This document shows positions 34,036 through 58,254 of a DNA stretch of 64,000 nt, one piece after another. A model generated the notes under the pieces. The model was not told the DNA's origin and searched no databases. It saw nothing but the letters and a program-made list of their open reading frames with translations. The position numbers and the translations under genes are program-made. The stretch comes from Cohaesibacter celericrescens (GTDB lineage: Bacteria > Pseudomonadota > Alphaproteobacteria > Rhizobiales > Cohaesibacteraceae), in contig NZ_PKUQ01000022.1 in assembly GCF_002866925.1 (NCBI RefSeq), positions 290,402 through 354,401 of the forward strand. The letters are read 5' to 3'. Each line of letters begins with the position of its first letter. The stretch's first letter is position 1.

Positions 34036-34273
34036 AGTAGCACGCCGCTATCGGGAGAAAAACACAAGTCCCAAGTCTGGTCGCCGCTGCGGGGACAACG
34101 ACGACCAGTATGCAAATCCAACGGACTAGCATAATGTGGGCCCAAAGGCCCTACGCGCAGAGAATTTGCTCATAAAAGCAGCGACACTTTAATTGGGGGA
34201 CTAGTCGCTATTCTCTGCTCGTTCTTGTTTGCTATTCTAGGGGAGTAATTCATGCCACATCGGCAAGCCCACC

Positions 34274-39442: not shown

Positions 39443-41587
39443 TCAGGCGGCAGAGACGCCTTTCAGGAAATGATCCACTTCATTTCTGAGTTGATCGGTC
39501 TGACGGGCAACATCCGATGAGCTAAGCTCAACCTGATCGACTGACTGCGTCGTCTCAGCAATGGAAGAAGTCAAATCTGACATGTTACGCGCCACCTGCT
39601 GTGTCCCATTCGCAGCCTGCGTCACATTGCTGCTGATTTCATAGGTTGCAGTCCCCTGCTCGTCCACCGCAAAGGAAATGGTATTAGTGTATTCATTCAC
39701 TTTTTCCATGGTGGTTGCGATGCCTTGGATCGCTTCTACAGCATGATCTGTGGCGGATTGAATATCCTGAATTTGCGAAGCAATTTCTTCGGTTGCTTTG
39801 GATGTCTGATTGGCCAACTCTTTCACTTCAGAGGCGACCACTGCGAACCCTCTCCCGTGTTCACCGGCCCGGGCCGCTTCGATCGTGGCGTTAAGAGCCA
39901 GCAGATTGGTTTGCTCGGCAATGGCCTGAATGAGGGAAACCACATCACCAATTTTCTGAGCGGAATGGGACAACCCAGACACCGTTTCGGTTGTCTCACG
40001 AGTAGCAGCGGTTGCTTGATTGACGACCTCAGAGGTCTCTTTGACCTGCCGCTTGATCTCTTCAATCGACGCGGACAATTCTTCAGCAGCAGATGCCACC
40101 GTTTGCACGTTGCCAGAGGCGACTTCAGAAGCAGCAGCAGAACTGTTCGCTTTATCGGCAGTTTGATCGGCAACGCCGGACAATATTTTTGCAGCATTCT
40201 GCATATTATCCATATTGCTTGCTACATTGTTCAGCAACTCTGAAGAAGACTTCCGGAAGCCTTCGATCATAGCTTCTACTGCTTGCTGACGCTGGGCGCG
40301 CTGCGCGTGATCCTGTACGCTTTGCTCTTGCAAACTTTTGCGCTCTAACGCGTTGTTCCGCAGGACTTCAACAGAGCGGCTCAATTCGCCAATCTCATCC
40401 TGTTTTTCCATATCAGGCAGGTCGACATCATAGTTTTCTTGCGCAATTTCCATCACGCCCTGGTTCAGCTCTTGCAACGGAGCCAAAGAGGACCGGATGA
40501 ACCATGCACCAAGTCCACCCATAACCACCAGCATCACCAATCCAAGGATCAAAAGACTATGGGTTAATTGATTCGATGGAGCCAGAAGCTCGTCATAAGA
40601 CTGCTGCGCGACGACAGCCCAATTGGTTCCCAATACGGTCATTGGAACGGAAATGGCACGGAACTTCTCTCCGTTAAAATCAACATCGCCTCTTGAAACT
40701 TGTCCTTCCAACGATTTTGCAGCTACATCGGAAACCGACTTTGGCAGATCCACGACTTGCTTGTTGGAGAAATCGATGCTTTGGAAACCGGAAGAAACCA
40801 AGTCTATTTTGCCAGTCTGCCCCAGACCAGTCTTATCACTCATAAGCGAAGTCAGTTTTTGTGTGTCGAGCTCAAGAGCAACCGCACCAAGGGTCAGCCC
40901 CCATTTTTCAACCGGCGCCACGAGATAGCTCTTGATTTCGCCATTCACGTTGAAGAAGCCAGTAAAATGAAACCCTTCATAGGGCTTTTTCGGGTTTTCT
41001 TTGGCAGATGTTGTAATCGGGCTGACTTGCATCGCCAGTTTTTTGTTTATGTCGCCTTCACGATAAACGTTTTTCCCCAGTTCATCGCCCTTCATATAGG
41101 AATAATAAGCGTCGCCCTGTTTGTCGAACATGATCAGATCGCGGAACATTCCCCCGGCTAACAACTCACCGATTTTCTCATGATGTTTTGCGTGGGTTTT
41201 GGTGTAATGGACATCTTTGACATCGACATCAACAAGCTTATTCCGCTCCCCAGCACCATAGGGATTGTCATCGATGTAATACTTACGTATCGAAGCAGAC
41301 GCTCCCTCCTTCAACCTCTTCCAATTGCTTTGCAGCTCTGTCGCAGCATTGGCCGTTGTCGTGTGCGAGACAAGAGAGTTCATTTTCTCTTGCAACTGCT
41401 CCATATAGATGACGACCGTGCCAGTACGCCCCTTTGCCCCGTTCAGCAACGCGGTCTCAGTTAGGCTAACAGACGTATTGCTTCCCATCCAAGAAGCAAC
41501 CGTAACAAATAATGCTACCACGATGGTAACCGAGGCAACCATGATCAGGGGGATCTTGGTTGCAAGACGTTTGGGAAGGATCTGCAT
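39443..41587 (-). CDS. Methyl-accepting chemotaxis protein (copy 1)
   Basis: 714 aa from the ATG at 41587, chosen because the neighbouring paralogue starts with the same MQILP sequence and has the same length. TM1 lies at about 14-36 ([20 protein letters not shown]), a Cache-type periplasmic sensor domain follows to about 325, then TM2 ([20 protein letters not shown]), a HAMP domain around [20 protein letters not shown], and the signalling domain with the hairpin tip [30 protein letters not shown] in part. It lacks a CheR-binding pentapeptide, ending KGVSAA. It relays a periplasmic signal to CheA/CheW, which are encoded elsewhere. Confidence 0.93.
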
Positions 41588-41817
41588 AATATTTACCACA
41601 CCTCTTTAAGTTTGGAAGCAGTGTCCTATAACTTATTTAGTGAAAGGTAAATTTTACCCGCGTCAACCAATGCGAGTAAAAGAAATGTATGGATAGTCCA
41701 CAAATACGCAGGAATGTTTCCATTTTCTAAGGATCAATACTTACCATTTTGCGACAACGGTCTCTTTTCAAGGCGCCAATTGTGAGTAACTTTGGTTGCT
41801 CGCATGAATAGAATAAG

Positions 41818-41873: not shown

Positions 41874-44018
41874 TTATGCCGCTGCAACACTTTTTAGGAA
41901 ACAGTCCACTTCTTTCCTCAACATATCGGTTTGTTGGGCCACATCTAGCGAATTCTGTTCCACCTGATCAACAGATTGGCTGGTCTCGGCAACGGAGGCC
42001 GTAAGGTCTGACATATTTCCAGCCACTTCAAGTGTACCATTTGCGGCCTGCGCAACATTCTGACTAATCTCAAAGGTTGCAGCCCCCTGCTCTTCGACTG
42101 CATGGGAAATAGCCAAGGTATATTCATTGACCTTTTCCATTGTGTCAGCAATCCCTTGAATAGCCAGAACGGCGTCTTGCGTGGCACCTTGAATGTCCTG
42201 AATTTGGCTGCCGATTTCTTCTGTTGCCTTGGACGTCTGGTTGGCCAATTCCTTGACCTCGGATGCCACCACAGCAAAGCCTTTACCGTGCTCGCCTGCG
42301 CGCGCGGCTTCGATTGTAGCGTTAAGCGCCAATAGATTGGTCTGCTCTGCGATTGCCTGGATCAAGGAGATAACGTCTCCAATTTTCTGCGCAGAATGCG
42401 ACAGACCCGATACAGTTGATGTGGTTTTTCGAGTCGCTTCTGTTGCCTGATCAACAACCGTTGATGTCTCATTCACTTGACGTTTAATTTCTTCAATTGA
42501 GGCAGACAGCTCCTCGGCAGCAGAGGCAACCGTTTGAACATTGCCAGAGGCGACTTCAGAGGCGGACGCTGAACTGTTGGCTTTTGTCGCAGTTTGTTCA
42601 GCAATCGCAGATAACAATTGCGCGGTCTGTTTCATGCCTTCCATATTACTGGAAACATTGTTGAGCAAGTCAGAAGAAGAGGAACGGAACCCATCGATCA
42701 TGGTTTCGATTGCTTGTTGTCGCCTACTGCGTTCAGCTTGCTCTGTGCGCCCCTGCTCTTCGAGTCTGCGGCGTTCTTGTGCATTGTTGCGCAGGATCTC
42801 AACAGAGTGGGCTAATTCGCCAATTTCGTCTTTGCGTCGGCTATCAGGCAAATCGACCGAATAATTTTCCTGAGCAATCTGCATCACACCTTCGTTCAGC
42901 TTTTGCAATGGAGACAGGGAAAACCGAATAAACAGAGCTCCAAAGCCACCCATCAACAGCAGCATCACAAAACCGACGACAAGCAGGATCTGCGTCAAGC
43001 TTTTGGATGGCGCGAGCAATTCTGAGTAGGCTTGTTCGACAACCAAAGCCCAGCTTGTTCCCAAAACAGACAAAGGCACAGCAATGGCACGATAATCTTC
43101 GCCTTCAATGGCAATATCGCCGGTTGCCACAGATCCCGTCAGAGCCTGCGTTGCAATATCCAAAACAGACCCGGGCAGGTCTCGTACCCGATGCTGGCTA
43201 AAGCTAACCTGCTTCAGATCGGCGGATACCAGTTCGATTCCGCCGGTTTCACCCAATCCAGACCGGTTCTCTACAATTTCGGCAAGAGTTTCTGTATTGA
43301 CCTCAAAAGCGACAGCGCCCAGCGTGCTGCCCCATTTGGTAATCGGAGCCACCATGTAGGCGGTGATCTTGCCATTCACTTCAACAAAGCCGGTGAAGCT
43401 GCCACCAGTGTAGCCACTGTCCGGAGTTTCGGCTGCAATTTTGACAATTGGCTTAACCAGAAACTGCAATTCTTCATGAAGCACGCCGTCTTCATTGACG
43501 TTACGTGCAAACTCATCGCCCTTGCGATACGAATAATAAATATTTCCGTCTTTACCAACCAACAGCATATCGCGAAAAAGCCCACCTTCGAGCAAACCAG
43601 CAACACGTTCCTGATGCTTCTTATGGACTTTATCGTAATAGACACCCTCCGCGTCACCAGACAGCATCTTGTAGCGCTCTTGCTCGGGATTGGGGTTATC
43701 ATTTACATAAATTTGACGCAGTTGCTTTGCGGCTTCTGTTTTCAGCACACCCCAGCCACCCGACAGTTCGGTCGCGGCATCCGCCGTGATGGTATGCGAT
43801 GCCATATTCTGCATCTTGTCTTGCAATTGCGCCATATAAAGAGTGACGGTGCTGGTTCTGCCTTTGGCAGCATTTAGCATCGCGGTTTCGGTCAAACTGA
43901 CAGACGTCTTTCCTCCGACCCATGTTGCGACACCCACAAGGACAGCCACCAATATGGTAACCGATACGATCATGATTACCGGAATTTTTGTAGAAAGTCT
44001 TTGCGGAAGGATTTGCAT
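41874..44018 (-). CDS. Methyl-accepting chemotaxis protein (copy 2)
   Basis: 714 aa, a tandem paralogue of the preceding gene with the same architecture: TM1 ([20 protein letters not shown]), Cache-type periplasmic domain, TM2, HAMP ([19 protein letters not shown]) and a signalling domain nearly identical at the tip ([20 protein letters not shown]). The periplasmic parts are the most divergent, for example [20 protein letters not shown] against [20 protein letters not shown], which suggests different ligands. It ends LKSVAAA, without a pentapeptide. AGGAG lies eight nt before the ATG. Each copy has its own terminator. Confidence 0.94.
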
Positions 44019-44219
44019 CCTGTTTTCTCCTGCGGATCCTGGAAGTGATTGCAGGTAGTGTTGGTGATTTACCTTTCTGAATTGTAAATACCGTATAACT
44101 TAGCCCCGTTTTATAATCACAATTGCGTATATACACGGGCAAACTGGCTTGGCTCGGACGCAAGCCCACGTATTCTCGAGCATTCCGTGACGACAAACGA
44201 GAGTTGGTCAAACGCGAAC

Positions 44220-44242
44220 AAAAAAGGGCGCGACCCGCGCAC
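44220..44242 (-). terminator. Terminator after the LuxR-type regulator gene
   Basis: GCGCG and CGCGC pair around GGT on the minus strand, followed by CC and TTTTTT. The stem is short but entirely G-C, 30 bp past the stop codon. Confidence 0.65.
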
Positions 44243-44272
44243 TCTATTCTATTGCTTTGGATATAAGTAAGC

Positions 44273-44965
44273 CTACATCATCCGGTTTGCGATCGCGACG
44301 GCTTGCGTACGGCGATAGCAATTCAGTTTTTTCAAAATCAGAGAGATATGATGCTTTACGGTTGCTTCCGTTAAGCTCAATTCGTAAGCGATCTGTTTGT
44401 TGAGCAAGCCATCCCGCAAATAGCGCAGAATCGTCATTTGTTTTGGGGTCAGATTGGCCAGCTTGGAATAAAGTGTTGAACGCTCAATTACAGCATCGCT
44501 TTCTTCAACGGTTATATCGTCTGCAATGCCCGTTTTGATCCTTTTTGTCGTTGAACGCAGTTCAGACACAGAAGCTGTTTTGTAAAGCACCCAGTCAACC
44601 CCATTCCCCAGCGCGTAATGAGCCAACCCTGTATCGGCTTCATCGCAAATCAGAACCAGGCGCGCGTGCTTATAGGCCTTGCGGACATCGGTTAATGCAG
44701 CCGACCCACGACTCGCCGTCGCATCCAGATTGAGAAACAGCAACGTATCTTCGCGATCAGGAGCCGCACTGAGCATTTGATCCAATGTCGTGCAATCCAA
44801 GACAGGCGTATATTCACGCTTGATCCCTAACATGCCAAGTAGGCACTCGGTGAAAATCGGATGTGTTTCAGCAAGAACAATTGTACGGTAATTAACGGTT
44901 CCTTGCTCGCCCTGATGCCCCAAACCGCGACGCACCTCTCCACCAATATCATCGAGCAACAGCAT
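44273..44965 (-). CDS. LuxR-type regulator with atypical receiver domain
   Basis: 230 aa. The C-terminal HTH (about 165-228) is clear: LTPKQMTILRYLRDGLLNKQIAYELSLTEATVKHHISLIL. The N-terminal part has receiver-like length and ends with VDWVLYKTASVSELRS, but the acidic pair is replaced by AETHP and the phospho-acceptor strand reads LLFLNLDATASRG, so phosphorylation is doubtful. The first 25 residues are an extra, Gly-rich segment. GGGGGAA lies five nt before the ATG. It has an unusually long, highly structured upstream region and no kinase gene next to it. Confidence 0.88.
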   Translation of the reverse strand: MLLLDDIGGEVRRGLGHQGEQGTVNYRTIVLAETHPIFTECLLGMLGIKREYTPVLDCTTLDQMLSAAPDREDTLLFLNLDATASRGSAALTDVRKAYKHARLVLICDEADTGLAHYALGNGVDWVLYKTASVSELRSTTKRIKTGIADDITVEESDAVIERSTLYSKLANLTPKQMTILRYLRDGLLNKQIAYELSLTEATVKHHISLILKKLNCYRRTQAVAIANRMM

Positions 44966-44990
44966 ATATATTCCCCCTATTTGTGGTCCT

Positions 44991-45004
44991 GAGACACATG
45001 TCTC
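44991..45004. promoter_or_regulatory. Dyad 26 bp upstream of the LuxR-type gene
   Basis: GAGACA and TGTCTC flank the dinucleotide CA. In RNA it can fold as GAGAC-AUGU-GUCUC just ahead of the ribosome-binding site, so it may be an operator or part of translational control. Confidence 0.4.
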
Positions 45005-45051
45005 TGATGGTTCAACTCTGCAAACGCAAGCAGCTTTTGGTACAGTCCGTT

Positions 45052-45256
45052 AAGGCAACCAATAGCGCGCGCCAGAGACAAGATCGCCTCCCTCCGCGCC
45101 AAGCAACTTGCCTGGTCTGGTTGCCTTTGATCATAGACACCTATGCAAGTGATCAAAGACAACCAACTCCATCACCACCGATGTGGTGGTTAGGCGGCCC
45201 AGGGCCTTTGGCCCCTAGCCTTTCGTCCTCCCGCACTAGCCCAAAGGCTAGCAACA
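45052..45256 (-). ncRNA. Putative structured leader RNA (possible switch) of the LuxR-type gene
   Basis: Five stems occur in 200 bases. A: CTAGCCTTT/AAAGGCTAG, 45215-45251, competing with CTAGCC-N4-GGCTAG at 45236-45251. B: GGGCC-N3-GGCCC, 45202-45214. C: CACCAC-N4-GTGGTG, 45173-45188. D: a 16-bp stem, 45118-45165. E: CCAGGC-N5-GCTTGG, 45099-45115. The 3' arm of D, AAGGCAACCA, can instead pair perfectly with TGGTTGCCTT at 45052-45061, which is exclusive with D. The only imperfect pairs in D and E are G-U on the minus strand but A-C on the plus strand, so the RNA is read from the minus strand. No known riboswitch class was recognised. Confidence 0.5.
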
Positions 45257-45262
45257 GAATTG

Positions 45263-45291
45263 ATAAAATGACAACCACACAAGATTGTCAA
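45263..45291 (-). promoter_or_regulatory. Sigma-70-type promoter for the LuxR-type gene leader
   Basis: On the minus strand a perfect TTGACA -35 (45286-45291) is followed after 17 bp by TTTTAT (45263-45268, four of six). Transcription would begin near 45256, giving a leader of about 290 nt before the LuxR-type gene. Confidence 0.6.
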
Positions 45292-45317
45292 TGAACAGCT
45301 TGATTTAATTGAGTAAA

Positions 45318-45369
45318 TTTGCGAATATTTTTGCAAACATTTTTTTGCAAATTGCAAATCTTGCAAATA
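45318..45369. promoter_or_regulatory. Cluster of TTTGCAAA-type sites before the ScfR-family gene
   Basis: Five TTGC/GCAA units occur in about 50 bp (at about 45319, 45331, 45346, 45352 and 45361), most as TTGCAAA. The RamB/ScfR family is known to bind TTTGCAAA-like sequences, so this is a probable autoregulatory site directly at the gene's own start. Confidence 0.72.
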
Positions 45370-45382
45370 TATGGAGACAGCT

Positions 45383-46825
45383 ATGGCAGAGAAGTTATTT
45401 GTTGGTCCCAAGGTGCGCACGCTTCGTGAAAGCCATGGCTTGACGCAATCCAGTTTTTCAGATCGCCTAGGAATTTCAACATCTTATCTGAATCAAATTG
45501 AAAACAACCAACGCCCGCTCACCGCACCGGTGCTGCTTGCTCTTAGCCATCACTTCAATCTTTCGCTCACCGATCTGGCAACCGCAGACACCAATCGTGT
45601 TCTTGCCGACCTAAAAGAAGCTCTCGCCGACCCTCTCTTTCGAGACACCAATCCCGGGCTGCAAGAACTCAAAATGGCCGCATCCAATTCACCTTGGCTC
45701 ACACAAGCTTTCCTGACGCTGCATCAGGCTCATCGGCGCGCCAATGAAAGACTGATGGTTTTGGACGACGCATTGACCACACAAAGCACGGAGGGCGTAG
45801 AGCGCTCTACCCTACCTTATGAGGAAGTGCGCGACTATTTTCATTATCACGACAATTATATTGATGAGCTAGACCAAGCTGCGGAAGATCTGGCTCGGCG
45901 CCATGCCATGATGGAGGGCAACCGCCTCAGCCAGTTTCAGGACTATCTTGAACAAAGACACAATGTGAGGGTTCGCTATACCGAAAATCCCGCCAACGAT
46001 CAGACAATGCGCCATTTCGATCAGGAAAGCCGCGTGCTGAGCCTGAATAGCGCGCAGGACGCTGCCTCACTCAGTTTTCTACTGGCTCACCAAATTGCCA
46101 TTATGGACTATAAAGATCTGATTGATGCACGCGTAGCAAAGGCTGGCTTTCGCTCAGAAGCAGCAGAAGCGATTGGCCGCATCGGGCTTGCCAATTATTT
46201 TGCAGGCGCTTTGTGTCTACCATATCAAAGGTTTCTGGAGTTTGCCCGAGAAACACGGCACGACATCGAAAGGATACGTCATCATTTTGGCGCCTCTCCC
46301 CAGCAAGTCGCCCATAGACTTTCCAGTATGCAGCGCCCCGGTGCGAGGGGCGTTCCATTCTATTTTTTACGGGTGGACAAAGCAGGGAATGTTACCAAAA
46401 GACACTCGGCGACCCGCTTTCAATTTGCCCGCTTTGGAGGAGCTTGCCCGCTCTGGAACGTCCACGAAGCCTTTGAAGAGCCCGGCCGGTTTTTGGTCCA
46501 GATTGCTGAAATGCCAGACGGGCTTAGATATCTGTGTATTGCAACGAGCGTAACAAAGCTTGGCTCTGGCTACCATGCTCCGGTACGCCGCTATGCCATT
46601 GGATTGGGATGCGAGATATCTTATGCTGATGAAATTGTTTACTCTGACGGGCTAAACCTGAAAAGCAGTGCGGGCGTGGTTGAAATCGGAGTCTCTTGTC
46701 GCATTTGTGAACGTCGCAATTGCCACCAAAGAGCCGTCCCTCCTGTCGACCGCAAACTGATTGTAGACCCCGACCGTCGCCAGTTTGTACCCTTTGAACT
46801 GGCCAACACAGGAAGGGAAAAGTGA
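45383..46825 (+). CDS. ScfR/RamB-family transcriptional regulator (XRE + IrrE-like + Zn-type C-terminus)
   Basis: 480 aa from the ATG at 45383, with GGAG six nt upstream; the ATG 12 bp earlier has no site. The HTH (about 8-63) reads KVRTLRESHGLTQSSFSDRLGISTSYLNQIENNQRPL in part. The middle is an ImmA/IrrE-like domain with a degenerate metal motif (LLAHQIAIMD in place of HExxH). The C-terminal region has CRICERRNCHQRAVPP, the cysteine signature of short-chain fatty acyl regulators such as RamB, which control acetate, propionate or glyoxylate genes through acyl-CoA signals. Target genes are not adjacent, but a copy of its putative site lies before pepN. Confidence 0.9.
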   Translation: MAEKLFVGPKVRTLRESHGLTQSSFSDRLGISTSYLNQIENNQRPLTAPVLLALSHHFNLSLTDLATADTNRVLADLKEALADPLFRDTNPGLQELKMAASNSPWLTQAFLTLHQAHRRANERLMVLDDALTTQSTEGVERSTLPYEEVRDYFHYHDNYIDELDQAAEDLARRHAMMEGNRLSQFQDYLEQRHNVRVRYTENPANDQTMRHFDQESRVLSLNSAQDAASLSFLLAHQIAIMDYKDLIDARVAKAGFRSEAAEAIGRIGLANYFAGALCLPYQRFLEFARETRHDIERIRHHFGASPQQVAHRLSSMQRPGARGVPFYFLRVDKAGNVTKRHSATRFQFARFGGACPLWNVHEAFEEPGRFLVQIAEMPDGLRYLCIATSVTKLGSGYHAPVRRYAIGLGCEISYADEIVYSDGLNLKSSAGVVEIGVSCRICERRNCHQRAVPPVDRKLIVDPDRRQFVPFELANTGREK

Positions 46826-58003: not shown

Positions 58004-58165
58004 GATTAAGCCTCGTCGCGTCTATTCGGTTGGATCAAACGGAAAAAATCTATATCCGGTATCAGATGAATGGGCGTTTGCCTGATTATAGCGGTCTTTA
58101 CGCATCAGCAAAGGGCGTTTGTCTAAAATGCCCGATAAGTCACAGACTTACAGACAAAGTCGCTA

Positions 58166-58196
58166 ACAAAAAGGGAGCATAAAGCCCCCTTTTTGT
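58166..58196 (-). terminator. Terminator after degP
   Basis: On the minus strand AAAAAGGGGGC pairs with GCTCCCTTTTT (one G-U) around a five-nt loop, followed by a T-run. It lies about 60 bp past the stop of degP. Confidence 0.85.
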
Positions 58197-58254
58197 TTCT
58201 TGTCAGAAAATGCTGCAATCTCACGTAGATCGCATGCGACCATCGACTGACGGT

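Follow-up and report, generated by a model that had tools for sequence, protein, structure and literature searches.

A putative structured 5′ leader within the divergent regulatory region of a LuxR-type and an ScfR/RamB-like regulator gene in Cohaesibacter

The region upstream of a LuxR-type regulator gene was analysed in a 64-kb stretch of Cohaesibacter celericrescens DNA (the window). Our favoured explanation, held with slightly less than even confidence, is a structured 5′ leader of an ordinary kind, whose folds are lineage-specific, inside a divergent regulatory region, and no switch was demonstrated. This explanation draws on the following: (i) the divergent gene pair found at 19 of 19 loci, the conserved block of boxes, TTGAC and palindrome, and a 45-nt model that recovers the locus in all 18 genomes of the genus; and (ii) leaders that change more slowly within clades than four-fold sites, a closed 16-bp stem, an open ribosome-binding site and the lack of a terminator. 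In the proposed mechanism, the ScfR/RamB-like protein would bind TTTGCAA boxes and set the transcription of both genes, and the LuxR-type transcript would begin near position 45256. A start-proximal hairpin would shield the 5′ end of the transcript, and later stems would keep the mRNA stable, thereby fixing how long it lasts and how much it is translated. The 16-bp hairpin of the window would be a lineage-specific stem that remains closed, and the supposed switch pairings would be by-products of the short near-repeats GGTTGYC and GGCTAG. The features of the region are as follows.

44276–44965, minus strand: LuxR/NarL-type regulator gene (230 aa) with an ErdR-like HTH and a receiver lacking the phospho-acceptor Asp
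44973–44977, minus strand: Shine-Dalgarno sequence GGGGG, mean unpaired probability 0.55 against 0.38 in 24 shuffles
44991–45004, minus strand: short hairpin GAGAC-ATGT-GTCTC upstream of the Shine-Dalgarno sequence, present in the MFE fold
45052–45061, minus strand: TGGTTGCCTT, which could pair instead with the 3′ arm of the 16-bp stem
45118–45165, minus strand: 16-bp hairpin with arms at 45118–45133 and 45150–45165, found only in the window species among the genomes compared
45215–45220, minus strand: second GGCTAG, alternative partner of CTAGCC, not conserved
45235–45252, minus strand: CTAGCC-TTTG-GGCTAG, a start-proximal hairpin or palindrome with G-U as its outer pair, probability about 0.84
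45263–45291, minus strand: presumed promoter TTGACA-N17-TTTTAT (TTGACA at 45291–45286, TTTTAT at 45268–45263)
45315–45367, no strand assigned: TTTGCAA-box block, presumed to be an operator of ScfR/RamB type, majority-base fraction 0.87–0.95 over 19 loci
45371–46822, plus strand: divergent ScfR/RamB-like regulator gene (ScfRs 233 bits, RamB 467.9 bits)

The two regulator genes are divergently arranged at all 19 loci compared (L003–L021, where L003 is the locus of the window). The LuxR-type protein carries a GerE domain (60.9 bits) and has orthologues in 17 of the 17 other genomes of the genus at 79–86% identity; a relative with 56% identity was found in one other genus within the family. Across the order, relatives at E 1e-28 were detected in 9 of 150 genomes, of which 5 lay outside the genus. 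When the DNA around the matches was examined, only one of these five (L022) had an adjoining ScfR-like gene, and this more distant relative (36%) showed the same divergent LuxR-type/ScfR-like arrangement. ErdR is the top NCBIfam model for the LuxR-type protein, which gives it a likeness to the ErdR/CrbR response regulators, known from acetate regulation. The window protein nevertheless reaches only 84.4 bits against the ErdR cut-off of 390 and differs from these regulators in its receiver. The initial annotation had described this receiver as atypical, and all 18 genomes of the genus indeed have Asn in place of the phospho-acceptor Asp, with the position assigned by eye against a paralogue. 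A further difference is that this paralogue, also ErdR-like and encoded in the same genome (L031, contig G000:C51), has an intact acceptor motif. It lies about 4 kb from a gene (L057, G000:C51) that we take to be similar to a CrbS-type sensor kinase. The LuxR-type regulator of the window therefore seems to be a diverged orphan.

The divergent regulator comprises ScfR, M78-like and HTH domains, and its ScfR C-terminal domain is well above the cut-off (233 against 24 bits). In Paracoccus, RamB is reported to bind CoA esters as well as paired boxes in DNA (PMC10370305). The window shares with that system an ScfR/M78-like/HTH neighbour and a repeated TTTGCAA between the genes, a putative set of binding boxes. 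The RamB boxes described there are 18 bp apart. The divergent protein of the window falls below the RamB equivalog cut-off of NCBIfam (467.9 of 700 bits). From the two gene families alone, we infer a possible role of the locus in an acetate network. The ScfR-like gene may alternatively start at the second ATG (45383) instead of 45371, and GGAG at 45373–45376 would then serve as its ribosome-binding site.

The most conserved part of the intergenic region is the presumed operator block. In the alignment of 19 loci, the TTTGCAA boxes and the stretch leading to TTGAC were nearly invariant (majority-base fraction 0.85–0.95). The TTTGCAA double box has one exact place in the genome, namely this block, and three further places with one mismatch. 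None of the genes adjoining the other double boxes could be linked to acetate from a reading of the open reading frames alone.

A promoter TTGACA-N17-TTTTAT had been proposed for the leader. The sequence is there and its TTGAC is present at 19 of 19 loci; however, the −10 hexamer is variable (TTTTAT, TCAAAT, TCTAAT, TCTTAT, TCATAT, TTAAAA, GAAAAA and others among the 19 loci), and TTTTAT has T where the second base of a −10 box should be A. A scan for sigma-70-like promoters over 44200–45420 gave no sites on either strand, against 1.4 expected. The start of the LuxR-type transcript near 45256 is thus a presumed one. The variable −10 hexamer and the absence of a sigma-70-like site would suit an internal promoter, in which case transcription would start much closer to the gene and most of the leader would be untranscribed spacer. 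The same scan, however, offers no other site on either strand, and TTGAC is retained at every locus; we consider an internal promoter quite unlikely. On the minus strand, GGTTGYC occurs in three direct copies (45270–45276, 45158–45164 and 45054–45060) with spacings of 112 and 104 nt, and the first copy falls within the promoter spacer.

The palindrome following the presumed start is also conserved, with a majority-base fraction of 0.81 over the 19 loci. A model of this 45-nt start-proximal element recovered the locus in every one of the 18 genomes of the genus (E <= 3.9e-6), 10 of which had supplied its training alignment (A4, 10 of 18 leaders). In alignment A1, which leaves out L006, L007 and L011 (first 44 nt the same as other rows) and L021 (short and diverged), 83.8% of the cells of the start-proximal stem were paired across 15 distinct rows. 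Among these rows, none of the seven pairs was changed on both sides relative to the commonest pair, and no measure rose above shuffles. Two adjacent mismatches break the stem in L018–L020. The covariation that the initial annotation anticipated in homologues is therefore absent from the one stem that could be aligned, and the other stems have no alignable homologues. The lack of covariation and the broken stem in three species also tell against the favoured explanation.

These observations give some weight to a reading in which the palindrome is a DNA operator, through which the LuxR-type protein might for instance regulate its own gene, and the remaining leader has no RNA function. The palindrome is kept mostly as sequence, it adjoins the conserved operator block, and the two strands of the region fold about equally well. 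However, one of its pairs varies as G-U, G-C or A-U between species, as an RNA stem permits, and the within-clade constraint extends well past the palindrome. The operator of a regulon would also be expected to have a second exact copy, and none was found in the genome, where one place matched with one mismatch and seven with two. On balance, a DNA operator appears somewhat unlikely. A looser pattern for the palindrome gave uninformative matches. The 45-nt model gave one extra match in the genus, in G011 (E 9.4e-4), upstream of a gene that we presume to be similar to a CrbS-type kinase; it was rejected as a second start-proximal element and taken as chance, since the next best match near the same gene in the other 17 species had an E value of 2.2.

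The most conspicuous structure of the window leader is the 16-bp hairpin, which was confirmed at 45118–45165 with 15 of 16 pairs Watson-Crick. An inverted repeat of 16 nt (loop 3–30, at most one mismatch) occurs nowhere else in the window and in none of 1000 dinucleotide shuffles of the leader. The predicted pair probabilities of the stem are 0.88–1.0 at equilibrium. As had been claimed, TGGTTGCCTT, read on the minus strand from 45061 to 45052, is a perfect match for pairing with the 3′ arm of this stem, and CTAGCC at 45251–45246 has two GGCTAG partners, at 45241–45236 and 45220–45215. A 10-nt partner for an arm arose in 46 of 20000 shuffles of the hairpin flanks, which makes the third arm copy rarer than a by-product would suggest and counts against the favoured explanation. 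At most, it may reflect the short near-repeat GGTTGYC, which occurs three times.

From these pairings, an RNA switch had been proposed, in which mutually exclusive structures flip in the leader and control the LuxR-type gene. The sequence allows both alternatives, few shuffles produce the third arm copy, and a receiver without a phospho-acceptor would leave room for control at the RNA level. The calculated energies nevertheless disfavour the main alternative: the TGGTTGCCTT pairing has a predicted equilibrium probability of about 1e-5 and an energy penalty of +7.7 kcal/mol when imposed. The CTAGCC alternative is predicted to cost little (+0.5 kcal/mol, nearly iso-energetic), with a probability of 0.08 where the competing hairpin has about 0.84. 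It is the best predicted fold of the 45-nt and 50-nt prefixes, but not of those of 30, 60 or 70 nt; a brief refolding of CTAGCC during transcription is therefore possible. Neither alternative pairing, however, was seen in the 17 other genomes of the genus (19 intergenic regions, 15 start-proximal stretches), and no counterpart of the 16-bp hairpin was seen in the alignment of the 19 intergenic regions. By eye, the alignments showed no second GGCTAG in L004–L015 or L017, and the related sequence in L016 and L018–L020 does not fit its own 5′ arm. With no terminator in the leader and a Shine-Dalgarno sequence more open than in shuffles, a switch would have no visible output. The proposal of a switching leader was not supported, and a switch is considered very unlikely.

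The Shine-Dalgarno sequence of the window is fairly open (shuffle fraction 0.88). Sequestration of the Shine-Dalgarno sequence was rejected after a comparison of 19 leaders with 24 shuffles each, in which only L009 lay below all of its shuffles, and L021 (0.08) and L015 (0.12) were low. Three terminator-like sites were found in 44200–45420, none of them within 44966–45256; one, at 45290–45269, overlaps the presumed promoter. A transcription attenuator was rejected, as the leader has neither an intrinsic terminator nor a conserved leader peptide. No open reading frame is common to the leaders, and the clade-1 leader (clade 1 being the nine species L004–L012) shows no codon periodicity. A short ATG open reading frame (7–29 codons) follows GGAGG in five of the nine clade-1 leaders (L005, L009–L012) and is absent from the other four. 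A target leader of CsrA/RsmA was also rejected, the CsrA gene having no match in the genome of the window species, which is 91.5% complete. The short hairpin GAGAC-ATGT-GTCTC has a similar place but a different sequence in several species, and the 54-nt stretch around it in the window folds no better than shuffles (z +0.29). A conserved hairpin before the Shine-Dalgarno sequence was dismissed, the mean z being only −1.13 over 13 leaders chosen from the 18 of the genus.

Comparison with Rfam gave no matches at the gathering threshold across the 64-kb window, in line with the earlier statement that no known riboswitch could be recognised. No account of this leader was found in the open-access literature, and this absence says little given the partial coverage. 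One paper that mentions both Cohaesibacter and riboswitch concerns, judging by its title, a denitrifying reactor (PMC12530212).

A dispersed repeat, named by the initial annotation as a finding that would speak against it, was rejected: the 326-bp element (44966–45291) has a single match in its own genome, and no other exact copy of the hairpin arm exists there, its exact matches being the two arms themselves; three further places match with one mismatch. An insertion or dispersed repeat that introduced the hairpin is accordingly judged extremely improbable. The nearly perfect 16-bp hairpin, restricted to the window species, could be read in its favour, as could the higher number of arm matches at up to three mismatches (131 and 133 places against 34 and 23 for the reversed control), an excess that we take for word composition. 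Against it stand the copy numbers and a leader length about equal to that in 13 of 17 relatives.

The claim of a structured leader stood: the putative minus-strand RNA from 45256 to 44966 has a predicted energy of −118.6 kcal/mol and a z score of −3.78 against shuffles. The plus strand reached z −3.20, and a second shuffle set gave −4.47 on each strand. Tiles of 290 nt across the window (42 tiles) had mean z scores of −0.62 and −0.47 on the two strands, with an SD of about 1 and a lowest value of −3.01. Among 15 other intergenic stretches of the window, 3 of 30 strand values were at or below z −3.8, one from the minus strand of 34036–34273 and two from the strands of 58004–58254; the fold strength of the leader is therefore unusual, not unique. 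In the 18 leaders of the genus, sense-strand z scores ranged from −1.08 to −4.47, against +0.23 in the outgroup L021. The antisense strand ranged from −0.04 to −3.72 in the leaders of the 17 relatives, with −4.47 in the window. Relative to its shuffles, the antisense strand is thus nearly as strongly folded, so the signal cannot clearly be assigned to the leader RNA strand, which counts against the favoured explanation. The initial annotation had also argued that imperfect pairs were G-U on the minus strand and A-C on the plus strand, as selection on a minus-strand RNA would leave them, but gave no coordinates for these pairs. One such pair exists in the 16-bp stem and the outer pair of the 5′ hairpin is G-U; however, the argument is weak as evidence because, by our reasoning, two transition-type imperfections would both favour the minus strand in about one case in four, and because both strands fold about equally well.

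About 200–300 nt before the LuxR-type gene fold better than shuffles in most species, and the sequence is unrelated between clades. The presumed leader measures 287–304 nt in 13 of 17 relatives. Identity of the window leader was 0.52 to clade 1 and 0.47 to the other eight leaders, against 0.46 and 0.45 for shuffled leaders. Downstream of the palindrome, the sequences of the window and its relatives can hardly be aligned. Within clades, by contrast, the leaders exceed the conservation of four-fold sites of the LuxR-type gene: identity was 0.83 against 0.56 in clade 1, 0.82 against 0.54 in L013/L014, 0.73 against 0.51 in L015/L017 and 0.88 against 0.76 in L018/L019. Conservation in clade 1 peaked at both ends of the leader (0.96 over the first 45 columns, 0.97 over the last 53) and was lower in the middle (0.76–0.86); constraint was absent from columns 197–244 (0.59).

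The consensus structure of clade 1 has 97.9% of its cells paired. Its covariation score was reached by none of 500 shuffles, and slid structures scored far lower. Related sequences can exceed all shuffles without any structure, so this covariation is only suggestive of structure. A hairpin with an invariant AGGGAG loop (L004–L012, columns 164–193 of alignment A2) contains three of the four clade-1 pairs that are changed on both sides; taken alone, its score was reached by 2 of 500 shuffles. RNAalifold energies for clade 1 and the three species pairs beat column shuffles (z −5.0, −4.8, −5.4 and −3.1), values that are flattered since column shuffles do not keep dinucleotides. For the window together with L015 and L017, the z score was −2.49, and 26 of the 73 pairs were disrupted in a row of the alignment. 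RNAalifold predicted no pairs for 18 leaders (without the short and diverged L021), a weak null because the leaders are not reliably alignable by sequence.

The clade-1 results could reflect a clade-specific riboregulator, in which the RNAs are functional and their folds change fast, one example being the Shine-Dalgarno-like AGGGAG loop. Such a regulator would account for the high pairing and covariation score in clade 1, for the three doubly changed pairs of the AGGGAG hairpin, and for paired columns being half as variable as unpaired ones (0.24 against 0.48, with the structure derived from the same alignment). Stricter counts are unconvincing: four doubly changed pairs were reached by 23 of 500 shuffles, 25 pair types by 146 of 500, and the three pairs of the hairpin by 31 of 500. 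Single-sequence folds paired the Shine-Dalgarno sequence with its predicted partner in only one of nine clade-1 leaders (L005). A covariance model of the clade-1 middle (R1) found no match at the locus of the window at E <= 10. It gave seven matches at this threshold in 13 sources, two being training rows. The other five (E 0.06 to 1.2) were all on the opposite strand to the LuxR-type gene; the L022 match fell between the two genes, and the rest were upstream of the presumed leader. The leaders of other clades were unmatched on the sense strand. A clade-specific riboregulator is accordingly regarded as unlikely. An RNA-level element somewhere in the genus appears plausible from these comparisons, and a fold shared with the window was not demonstrated.

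A bolder version, in our estimation improbable, is a genus-wide cis riboregulator of an acetate-network regulator. Its position, approximate length and start-proximal hairpin would be retained, with the core folds being replaced from clade to clade; in clade 1, the AGGGAG loop and the ribosome-binding site would compete for one pyrimidine tract, and RNA control would replace the lost phosphorylation of the receiver. The favoured structured leader resembles the general class of structured 5′ leaders of bacterial regulator genes in being a long and stable predicted RNA, in its single copy and in its within-clade constraint. It differs from that class in that no ligand is defined, no terminator is present and the ribosome-binding site is not sequestered, and its folds are not common to the clades.

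A caution follows from this locus: a striking hairpin with alternative pairings in a single genome may lack conservation even inside the genus. The leader is conserved above four-fold sites within clades, yet it is hardly alignable between them, and this pattern is found at a regulator with a seemingly unphosphorylatable receiver, with an ScfR/RamB-like regulator alongside. Should the leaders prove to work as RNA, they would illustrate the speed at which a regulatory RNA can exchange its fold without giving up its place.

Some other stretches of the window were also recorded. Two similar genes for methyl-accepting chemotaxis proteins lie in tandem (39446–41599 and 41877–44018) downstream of the LuxR-type gene. 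Strong folds occur on both strands of 58004–58254 (minus-strand z −3.79). The palindrome AGGGCCTTTGGSCCC has four places in the genome at up to one mismatch, two of them inside the 64-kb window. The minus strand of 34036–34273, between two convergent open reading frames, folds more strongly against shuffles than the leader (z −4.65); the stretch is possibly a terminator region and contains GGGCCTTTGGGCCC, which resembles a leader palindrome.
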